Shown piece after piece: positions 636 through 59,602 of a stretch of DNA of 64,000 bases. A program made the translations under genes and the position numbers. The DNA comes from Symbiodinium natans. Its lineage: Eukaryota > Sar > Dinophyceae > Suessiales > Symbiodiniaceae. The first letter of the stretch is position 1; each line of letters begins with the position of its first letter. The stretch spans positions 564,025-628,024 of the forward strand of contig CAJNDS010000001.1 in the NCBI GenBank assembly GCA_905221605.1. Direction: 5' to 3'. Under the pieces are notes generated by a model, which saw only the letters and a list, made by a program, of their open reading frames with translations, did not search any database and was not told the origin of the DNA.

Positions 636-3600
636 CTGAAAGCTTGCCCTAACTTCGTGCATCTGGGAAACATATTATATGATACGTGCAGGGCCCCAAC
701 GTCACCATAGAGGGGGCGGACTTAACAGAACACAAGTATACCCTGTTTGAGGCAGGGTCTGCCCTGTAGTTGGTAAGTGCACAAAAGGGTGCCTTATCCG
801 AGCAAACAAGGATCCTTGGGCCGGATTTTGGGTTTGGAGCACCAAAGCCCTTTGGAGTACCAGAAGCCCTAAGAAAACCCTAAACCATAAACCCTAAACC
901 TAAACCCTAACCCCTATAGCTTCTAGGACTTGGGTCTGGGGTGGTAGGGCTTCAGACCTTGAGGTCAAAAGGGTACAGAGTTGCCTAAGCAGCACAAGCC
1001 CGCCGGGGGGGGGGGGGGGGGGGGGGGGGCGTGCTACTAGTACATTACATGACTTCGCGTTCGGGGCCTGGGGCCCCTAAACCCGAAACCCTAAACCCTA
1101 AACCCTAAACCCTAAACCCTAAACCCTAAACCCTAAACCCTAAGGGAAGCATGGGAGCGAACAAGCCCAGCAGCTCCTTCTCCTCTGAGTAGCCCGGAAA
1201 GATGGCCGGGGCGTGGGCTTTAGGGTTTCTCAGGCGAACCCTGCCGACTAGTAGGGCTGTTAGGGGGTCTAGGGTTGAGCCCTAAACCCTAAACCCTAAA
1301 CCCTAAACCCTAAACCCTAAACCCTAAACCCTAAACCCTAAACCCTAAACCCTAAACCCGCCTTCTTGGCTTCGAGGATGGCCGCCTGCTTTGCTTCAAT
1401 CTCCTCCTGACAGGGTGGGTTTCGGAGCATCTAGGGACAGGGGAATATCCCGTACTAGGGTTCCCTCAGAAATATCCCCCTGTTTTTTGGAACTCCCTTC
1501 AAAAGGGCACCCTGGTTTGGGAACCCCCCCCCCCCCCCCCCCAATTATTTTAAGGCTAAAGGCTGGTGATATTTCAGTGACCTTGTGCGCCCGAGGGTTT
1601 GGGTTTTCGGGCTTTGGGCTTACAATACCACGAAGGGAATCGGGTAACCTTGGAGAAGTCCTAGGGTAAGAGTCCAGGTTGCTACGCAGTCTTCAGGGAC
1701 AACTTTGCCAACCCGAGCAACCGAACACCCCCAAACCGAATAACAAGCTGTAGGGTTCAGGGCCCCATCAGAGTGTCCATTTGTTGTACTATTATGGAGT
1801 TAGGGTTTAGGGCTTAGGAGTTTATGTAGGGTTTAGGGACCCTGAACCCTTCATCCGAAATTCAAGAACCCTTTTGTCGTATGGTTTTTGGGAACCTAAA
1901 CTTCCATACTGGGACTACAGATGGACCCTCCGCGTTCCTCAACTTTCTACGCCCAAACCTTCCGAAACCCAAAGCCCTAAGTATGCCCCTTGCACTTCCC
2001 AATCCCCCGAGCCCTCAGCTCGTTCACAAAGGGGAGGGTGGGGTTGCGCAGGAGTCCTCAAGCCCTAGCCCTGAACCCTAAACCAAAAGCCAGCCTAAAC
2101 CAGCCGCAACCCTAAAACCCTAAACCCCTAACCCCTAAACCCTACAAGCCCTAAACCCCACAAGCCGTAAACCCTAAACCCCAAACCCTGAACCCCAAAG
2201 CCCTAAGCCCTAAGCCCTAAGCCGTAAGCCGTAAGCCGTAAGCCCTAAACCCTAAACCCTAAACCCTAGCCCTAAACCCTAAACCCCATGAGGAGTCCTC
2301 AGTCTCCAGGCTCTTAGGGTCCAACGTCGCCCCGGGCTCCGCGGGCTCTTGGTCCTGCTCAAAGGCGTGTCTGAAGGGTTGCGAGGATTTGGGGTTTAGG
2401 GTTTAGGGCTAGGGTTTAGGGTTTAGGGCTAGGGTTTAGGGTTTCGGGTTCAGGGCTTGTAGGGTTTCGGGTTCAGGGTTTAGGGAAACTAGGTACATCA
2501 TCTAAGTCCTCGCACTGACACCATGAAACTTCTAAGTTGTCTAGGGTTTCTGAGGTTGCTAGGCTTCCAGGATTTCCACTGTTTCCAGGCCCAGGGATTC
2601 CCAATCTCTAGGCTATCTCGGGCGTCTAGGGTTTCTAGGGCTTCAAGAAATCAGGGCCCACAGGTACCATAAGGCTTCGGAAGGTTTAGGTTTAGGGTTT
2701 AGCTGGTGACTCGGCCAGGCCCACCAGTACCCTAGCACTAGCGTGTAGTGGGCTCAAAACAGAAAACCCAACACACCCTGCAACCCTAAACCCCAACCCC
2801 CAAACCCTACTCGCTGCCCACCTCTCGCCACAGCCCTGAACCGTAAGGGTTTAGGTTTGGATGCTCCCCCCCGTTTATAGGGATTATAATCGGGGGGGGG
2901 GGGGGGGGGGGGGTGTTAGTAGAAGGACGAACATCCCAAGGTCTACTTATTAACCAATTATAACTGTACTTAACCCACCTTATAAGTCCCTTAAGTGCCC
3001 GAAAATGGCTATAATTTGGGTCAAGAGTACAGGAATAATTGGTTAATAAGTACCGTGAACCTCCCTAAACCCTAAACCCTAAACCCCAAGCCCTCAACCC
3101 TAAACCCTAAACCCAAGTAGGGCTCAAGGCGGAGAGAATTGCCGAGCCTTCTCAGCAGACACCTCCGCCAGAGCATCCTCGGCCGCCTTCTGCGCGGCCT
3201 TGTGCTGGAGTCCCGACAATGTCACCCTAAACCCTAAACCCCAAACCCTAAACCCTAAACCCTATAAACACGAGCCCCAAACCGGGCAACCCTGACAACC
3301 CCCAAGAAGCCCTCGCAAACCCTGAGCCTAAACCCCAAACCCCGCACCCTTAGCCGGGTTGGTCGTAACCCTCTGAAAAATGTGAGTATACAGTATAAAC
3401 CCCGAGCAAAGAATATGTTTTGATATCCCTACCCCTAAACCCTACACCCTAAACCCTGAATCCTAAACCCTCCTAAACCCCAAACCATCCGAAGCCCTAT
3501 TTTGGGGGGCTGACATGGGTTGACAGACAACAGGGGACCCGGAACATGGACCCCAAATAGTAGGATCCCCTATACTAAGGACTCCAATAGGCTGCCCCTC

Positions 3601-59602: not shown

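Follow-up and report, generated by a model that had tools for sequence, protein, structure and literature searches.

Telomere-type repeats at internal chromosomal sites, the interstitial telomeric sequences, are known from vertebrates, plants and other eukaryotes, and are reported to enter such sites when breaks are repaired (PMC7215372). The repeats of the dinoflagellate alga Symbiodinium natans likewise occupy internal sites, but differ from the known ones in their abundance of about 2.37 million three-unit matches, in their anchoring to exon flanks and in their fixed polarity. Plant telo-boxes are a short telomere motif used in genes, present as one to few units near promoters, whereas the S. 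natans arrays flank exons. Binding sites for hnRNP proteins near intron ends were reportedly described by Martinez-Contreras in 2006. Mammalian hnRNP A1 elements likewise place UAGGG inside introns near 5′ splice sites (PMC9634572); however, these elements are short, single and often repressive, whereas the S. natans arrays reach up to 21 units, come with a complementary C array before the acceptor, and would be bound by a protein that is as yet putative. Finally, introners, as described in family 1 of Symbiodinium microadriaticum and in the introner elements of Amoebophrya, likewise carry inverted sequences near both intron ends that are able to fold the intron (PMC9860276, PMC7789003), and the dinoflagellates bearing them likewise have non-GT donors. 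Introner copies, however, share sequence and may carry target-site duplications, whereas in S. natans the intron interiors are unshared, the two arms are independent, and a simple repeat is set back from the splice sites.

Here, we report that many S. natans exons have telomere-type arrays outside them, at a distance of mostly 25-150 nt from splice sites, and that on either side the G-strand points away from the exon; this is a new organisation of the known interstitial telomeric repeats. In a literature search confined to open-access papers, no title or abstract opening among the matches listed describes telomere repeats that take a set direction about exons, and the words 'telomer' and 'introner' are absent from the main text of the S. 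natans genome paper (PMC8045281).

Polarity and position of the arrays at HYDIN exons

The window, that is, the whole stretch of 64,000 nucleotides analysed, comprises bases 564,025-628,024 of a 3,396,986-base contig (3.4 Mb) in an assembly of 759.4 Mb and 2,543 contigs. Throughout, T denotes TTTAGGG, the telomere repeat reported for dinoflagellates as a group (PMC11453091, PMC9498494), and C denotes CCCTAAA. The window contains 596 T and 535 C, and the placement of this telomere-type tandem repeat is interstitial, at 564-628 kb of the 3.4 Mb contig and away from chromosome ends. Three-unit TTTAGGG matches in the whole assembly number 1,185,204 and 1,184,385 on the two strands, which at 7 bases each amounts arithmetically to about 16.6 Mb, while the reversed pattern used as control gave 41 and 33 matches.

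The minus strand of the window carries a HYDIN gene, onto which the published S. natans protein (1,268 aa) maps collinearly by exact peptide matches (Table 1), and the gene prediction of the S. natans genome project is reported to have taken in Iso-Seq and short-read transcripts (PMC8045281). Ten more HYDIN introns lie in the adjoining 10 kb, past base 1 of the window. At each of the 43 window junctions, a G[TCA] donor and an AG acceptor that keep the reading frame can be placed (26 GC, 8 GT and 9 GA; where several splits were possible, the junction script preferred GT, then GC, then GA), and the acceptors chosen are AG/G in 43 of 43. Two exons absent from the published model split one of the 53 annotated introns, giving the set of 55 introns (34 GC, 13 GA and 8 GT donors) and 54 internal exons that is used below, in which the median exon is 45.5 nt and the median intron 614 nt; with both exons added, the protein reads gap-free as VRPSLSYQLGPVMPKGEGCSEEFWLVNPTDYPI, the counterpart in Cladocopium goreaui being VRPSNSYQLGPVMPNSEGCSEEFWLVNPTDYPI. 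Altogether, the C. goreaui ortholog matches in 22 collinear minus-strand pieces of at least 25 bits, 18 of them on model exons. A HYDIN-like stretch at 34196-34288 was rejected as an exon, since hand inspection found no in-frame splice path for it. Direct Pfam scans of four stop-masked minus-strand translation stretches matched no family, and the HYDIN match of the joined peptides against the PDB is weak when taken alone (best E 0.8-1.0). Ten exons had been named in an earlier note on this DNA, of which nine (1358, 4664, 7164, 8181, 10074, 23062, 25715, 33436 and 36679) belong to the HYDIN model by exact peptide match, and the tenth, at 58518, falls among the exons of a NADAR-like gene.

Table 1. 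Features of the window and the motifs mapped on them
Feature	Position	Strand	Details
S. natans HYDIN, part in window	597..40852	-	residues 1-673; 44 exon pieces, 43 introns; exact peptide mapping, splice-consistent junctions
Exon absent from published model	31496..31523	-	in C..T island 31445-31559; in-frame PSLSYQLGP; restores reading of C. goreaui ortholog
Exon absent from published model	30359..30396	-	in C..T island 30309-30455; reads VMPKGEGCSEEFW; C. goreaui ortholog comparison
NADAR-like gene exons, upstream of HYDIN	51229..59605	-	includes exon at 58518; PF08719 E = 2.3e-5, 25.1 bits, under curated cut-off 35.1
HYDIN intron of 10.3 kb with plus-strand element	12285..22614	-	long open frames (12.8-22 kb); T nearest donor, C nearest acceptor
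Model intron, 275 nt, GC-AG	7906..8180	-	7 T, first 18 nt past donor; 7 C, last ends 38 nt before acceptor
Two-arm intron, GC-AG	37606..37935	-	T arm 24 nt from donor, C arm 60 nt from acceptor
Two-arm intron, GT-AG	36772..37571	-	C arm ends 6 nt before acceptor
Two-arm intron, GC-AG	32857..33435	-	motif mapping on gene model
Two-arm intron	23595..24997	-	24 T then 12 C
Two-arm intron	23143..23575	-	8 T then 17 C
Two-arm intron	9396..10081	-	T arm 9 nt from donor, C arm 98 nt from acceptor
Two-arm intron	5000..5834	-	6 T then 32 C
Two-arm intron	2355..3147	-	6 T then 7 C
Counter-example intron, only C motifs	39141..39505	-	C nearest donor; motif mapping on gene model
Counter-example intron, T at both ends, without C	3199..3738	-	motif mapping on gene model
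Counter-example intron without motif	40577..40837	-	motif mapping on gene model

The claim of that note that minus-strand exons are typically bounded by CCCTAAA on their left and TTTAGGG on their right is confirmed as to polarity by the HYDIN introns, and equally by the annotation-free segments and the tract gaps described below. Within 100 nt, the motif nearest the donor is T in 35 of the 55 introns and C in 9, with none in 11 (binomial p 1e-4), and that nearest the acceptor is C in 36 and T in 4, with none in 15 (binomial p 2e-7), all of these counts coming from one gene and not being fully independent draws. The ratios hold in a 50-nt window (donor T:C 20:5, acceptor C:T 29:3), in a 150-nt window (36:11 and 39:6), and, at 100 nt, for the 53 annotated introns alone (33:9 and 34:4). 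As profiled in the 46 introns that measure 350-3000 nt, T density has its maximum of 49.6/kb at 50-75 nt past the donor and is 2.6-7.0/kb at 225-300 nt, while C density is highest at 25-100 nt before the acceptor (43.5-48.7/kb) and is 2.6-3.5/kb at 225-300 nt; there is also a small C rise at 50-75 nt past donors (13.9/kb), and T is almost missing from the last 25 nt before acceptors (0.9/kb). This density profile, together with the orientation, shows that the motif is enriched at a set distance from the splice sites with a fixed strand.

The introns themselves do not start and end at the repeats, as had been supposed: the splice sites lie outside the arrays, the first TTTAGGG following the donor by 5-84 nt (29 of 43 window introns with T nearest) and the last CCCTAAA ending 2-98 nt ahead of the acceptor (28 of 43 with C nearest; 100-nt search in both cases). 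With the donors standing 5-84 nt ahead of the first unit, the idea that telomere units themselves serve as splice sites (a GG/GTTTAG donor) was rejected. Among introns with exactly two motif blocks, 20 are T-then-C and one is C-then-T. A simple ban on C-before-T order within introns was rejected as well, 20 such neighbours being found against 30 T-then-C at 10-150 nt apart. Islands of 60-200 bp between neighbouring motifs contain a whole exon in 27 of 45 C..T cases, leaving 18 without one, in contrast to 2 of 27 T..C and 5 of 38 same-orientation islands. Likewise, gaps of 60-150 bp between tracts of at least two units make up 97 of 144 C-to-T gaps against 32 of 142 T-to-C gaps, as counted in the window plus the adjoining and sampled loci (L009-L026).

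Perfect arrays of at least four units occur in 35 of the 55 HYDIN introns and reach 21 units; one intron has no motif at all, and 8 of the 54 exons are without any arm. The presence of a T arm has no clear link with donor type (GT 6/8, GC 23/34, GA 7/13), and arm number shows no correlation with exon length (rho 0.03, p 0.83); on these two grounds, arms as a match to weak donors or short exons were rejected. Coupling between the two flanks of one exon is not significant (odds ratio 2.4, p 0.21). After masking, GC skew is +0.14 in the first and -0.12 in the last 150 nt of introns (44 introns, p 5e-4), while TA skew does not differ between the same masked segments (p 0.20). Array-free gaps of HSP70 genes also lean to G at the 5′ side (0.18 vs 0.03; 14 gaps), and this lean, in masked introns and array-free gaps alike, suggests that ordinary introns may already contain seeds from which oriented growth could start.

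Orientation beyond HYDIN and genes nearly without arrays

With a codon-score scan that made no use of the motif and was trained on three S. natans HSP70 genes, 25 minus-strand segments above 12 bits were found in the window once the large element and three low-complexity stretches had been set aside. The nearest motif within 100 nt of these segments is T in 19, C in 3 and none in 3 downstream, and C in 18, T in 2 and none in 5 upstream; circular shifts, with the large element alone left out, gave means of 5.4 (T) and 5.9 (C), and 0 of 2000 were as high. The scan scores are not strand-proof, as seven plus-strand segments pass too, mostly with the same strand-symmetric flanks.

The earlier note had set beforehand, as refutation of its claim, a lack of TTTAGGG orientation bias at introns genome-wide, and the bias holds both on other contigs and in genome-wide pattern counts. 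In a sample of 16 loci on other contigs (L011-L026, two more stretches drawn with them adjoining the window), 34 segments have motifs on both sides, arranged C..T in 22, T..C in 2, T..T in 4 and C..C in 6 (119 more have a motif on one side or none), and the 22 C..T compare with a circular-shift mean of 8.0 and a maximum of 16 in 500 shifts. Over the whole assembly, the pattern CCCTAAACCCTAAA-N85..115-TTTAGGGTTTAGGG has 107,320 matches against 41,057 in the opposite order, overlapping matches being counted; the window alone has 16 and 8. A genome-wide C-N300..330-T count of 143,516 was set aside, as it also counts array-internal spacing and has no T-N300..330-C partner. One of the sampled loci, an ankyrin locus (L025), departs from the rule in that several of its exons are flanked by C at either end; its peptides matched 870 proteins, and among the 120 listed there was no exact match to the locus, the best having 36% identity.

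The arrays are unevenly distributed among genes. Motif density exceeds 5 per kb in 10 of the 16 sampled loci and is below 3 in the other six. Five HSP70-family loci have one motif in all, with introns present, and seven more HSP70-family matches, picked by homology alone, have no motif in their flanks (about 400-700 bp each side). Over residues 34-539, the part mapped, the annotated S. natans ANKRD50 falls into nine exon pieces, with 2 motifs along 6.5 kb. Introns in the array-poor HSP70 and ANKRD50 genes therefore indicate that arrays are unnecessary for introns in S. natans. Features that speak against a splicing function are the lack of a clear link with donor type or exon length, the 8 armless exons of 54 and the introns of array-poor genes.

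Arm independence, pairing and intron interiors

That some introns lack one arm, as noted earlier, is borne out: both arms lie within 100 nt in just 23 of the 55 introns, which is the rate expected of independent arms. The cells of the 2x2 arm table are 7, 13, 12 and 23 (Fisher p = 1.0 at 50 and 100 nt, 0.53 at 150 nt), and arm sizes have a rank correlation of 0.02 (p 0.90), in a set whose 55 introns suffice to exclude strong arm coupling only. The arms had also been said to be able to pair in the pre-mRNA. Among the 46 introns folded, at least 14 arm-to-arm base pairs are predicted in 15 of 15 two-arm introns (at least two motifs in each outer 150 nt), against 7 of 15 with the 3′ half reverse-complemented, so for this class the statement stands; the other 31 show no gain in pairing (20 vs 25 with the 3′ half reverse-complemented). 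The predicted pairing comes about because the arms are complementary, and a use in splicing does not follow from it.

When the 43 masked introns of this gene were compared all against all, only five shared one short palindromic, MITE-like piece, and the other matches were poly-C/G runs. From the 16 longest motif-free stretches listed, five interiors of 130-131 nt were picked by hand for a genome search that skips very common words. Each was found at its own locus only, save that a 64 bp stretch in one of them had 15 more matches. In a look for target-site duplications, the six bases around donor and acceptor agreed by 60% on average, which the shared AG/G largely explains. The telomere blocks had been read as possible inverted ends of an intron-forming element; with independent arms, unshared interiors and splice sites outside the arms, the reading as a terminal-inverted-repeat element is not supported.

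Possible origin and function of the arrays

The cause of the array pattern probably lies in the splicing or the growth of these introns. We tentatively propose that telomere-type arrays are anchored to exon flanks with a polarity set by the splice sites, and are possibly kept as splicing aids, the other reading offered in the earlier note and a function that we infer and regard as quite possible. The arrays would have grown within existing introns by telomere-type addition or slippage, each being kept at a place and in an orientation that splicing tolerates or benefits from, and the pre-mRNA would then carry (UUUAGGG)n inside the donor and (CCCUAAA)n ahead of the acceptor. The 5′ arm, UUUAGGGU, would offer a repeated UAGGG-type site (UAGGGU), of a kind known in mammals to bind hnRNP A1, whose SELEX site is reported as UAGGGA/U (PMC9634572), and G triplets besides; the 3′ arm, CCCUAAAC, is in our reading pyrimidine-rich and putatively branch-site-like. 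Working flank by flank, the arms would be optional aids to the recognition of very short exons with mostly non-GT donors, and arm-to-arm pairing may occur but would not be the selected trait. TTAGGG-type arrays placed in a yeast intron are reported to cut spliced mRNA in both orientations, and more so in the C orientation (PMC9272169), which indicates that expression can depend on orientation, though the effect is not the one that the S. natans pattern needs. A bolder form of the proposal, which we consider rather doubtful, is that the arrays may form a modular code that marks exons genome-wide, with (CCCUAAA)n ahead of tiny exons and (UUUAGGG)n behind them, each arm recruiting telomere- or hnRNP A1-related RNA-binding proteins, so that telomere DNA would have been turned into a splicing signal where donors are mostly not GT.

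It is conceivable, if somewhat unlikely, that splicing acts as a filter only: the arrays would arise neutrally in introns, those making false sites would be purged, and the remainder would be useless. TTTAGGG is rich in AGs, TTTAG/G fitting an AG/G acceptor, and would hence be barred before acceptors, with which the near absence of T from the last 25 nt before acceptors, the AG/G at all 43 window acceptors and the presence of introns in array-poor genes agree. However, a filter predicts even density along introns, whereas both arms peak near exons, it leaves the rarity of C after donors unexplained (9 vs 35), and neighbours in C-then-T order, 10-150 nt apart, are common within introns (20 vs 30 T-then-C).

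It is unlikely, in our judgement, that the pattern comes from telomerase healing breaks in introns, both ends being healed and then rejoined, by which the G-strands would run away from each exon independently per end, and repeated cycles would erode introns toward the exons. Such healing would account, without any splicing role, for a polarity symmetric about the exon and for the independence of the two arms, and it fits the perfect arrays of up to 21 units and the identity of the repeat with the reported dinoflagellate telomere sequence (PMC11453091). Nevertheless, close head-to-head T-C joints are few, 11 of 142 T-to-C gaps being shorter than 60 bp (against 4 of 144 C-to-T, and so slightly commoner) and, on other contigs, 4 of 81 against 1 of 81, and a preference for the 50-75 nt zone is not expected of random breaks unless an erosion step is added.

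An introner-type mobile element with telomere-repeat terminal inverted repeats, which would insert and thereby create introns, is very unlikely: inverted arms are indeed present in 23 of 55 introns, and introners bearing such repeats with 4 bp target-site duplications are described in S. microadriaticum (PMC9860276), but the arms co-occur no more than by chance (Fisher p 1.0), a single short piece is shared by only five of 43 introns and the rest is poly-C/G, the five interiors searched match only their own place bar the one 64 bp stretch, and the distance from arm to splice site varies over 2-98 nt. Hardly credible is an artefact of gene prediction or assembly, in which predictors avoid masked repeats and the 'exons' are whatever remains between, for although EvidenceModeler produced the published models, and at least one predictor received soft-masked sequence while another used a repeat library (PMC8045281), masking has no orientation and cannot create polarity, the C. 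goreaui pieces fall mostly on model exons, and the HSP70-trained scan recovers the same polarity.

In practical use, C..T islands point to exons, two of which are absent from the published HYDIN model. Internal telomere repeats are usually treated as scars, while those of S. natans are tied to exons in both place and direction. Either splicing shapes the survival of arrays, or the arrays help splicing, or breaks in genes were healed in a directed way, and each of these options bears on splice-site recognition in dinoflagellates whose donors are weak and non-canonical and whose exons are very short, and on the growth of their introns.

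Repeated pieces and a large element in the HYDIN introns

Inside a 10.3 kb intron of the minus-strand gene HYDIN lies a large element on the plus strand, whose open frames are 527, 559, 373, 666 and 1138 residues long, and the motif count over the window found neither exact TTTAGGG nor exact CCCTAAA from 12553 to 22492. Additionally, a short MITE-like palindrome, around CAGTCCTTA...TAAGGACTG, turns up in five HYDIN introns, and G or C runs about 15-25 long occur repeatedly in the introns of the window, the two tabulated being examples.

Features of the window and of one further contig
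Feature	Coordinates	Strand
Plus-strand element	12823-22033	+
Intron with MITE-like piece	8231-9369	
Intron with MITE-like piece	10140-10821	
Intron with MITE-like piece	11402-12255	
Intron with MITE-like piece	25037-25742	
Intron with MITE-like piece	36772-37571	
G or C run	around 1003-1029	
G or C run	around 2892-2913	
Low-complexity stretch	49726-50727	
Low-complexity stretch	53006-53452	
Low-complexity stretch	56527-56997	
Inverted duplication	63393-63840	both
Cpn60/TCP1-family match	G000:C1992:33993-35855	

Low-complexity and duplicated stretches

One of the three low-complexity stretches carries a KTIFFSRKRWF-like peptide period, readable from both strands. Close to the end of the window, an almost identical peptide can be read from either strand, which marks this stretch as a long inverted duplication.

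Other loci and contigs of the assembly

Motif density was very unequal among 16 loci sampled from other contigs (L011-L026), being ~6-43 per kb in 10 and <3 per kb in 6. HSP70-family genes occur in several tandem copies on contigs C538, C102, C1002 and C1864 of the assembly (G000). The Cpn60/TCP1-family match, with open frames up to 682 residues, is possibly a bacterial GroEL on a contaminant contig.

Make-up of the published HYDIN model

The C-terminal half of the published protein (P0001) also contains a methyltransferase and an EF-Tu-like domain, and residues at its end resemble translated telomere repeats. The published 'HYDIN' model is perhaps a fusion of neighbours.
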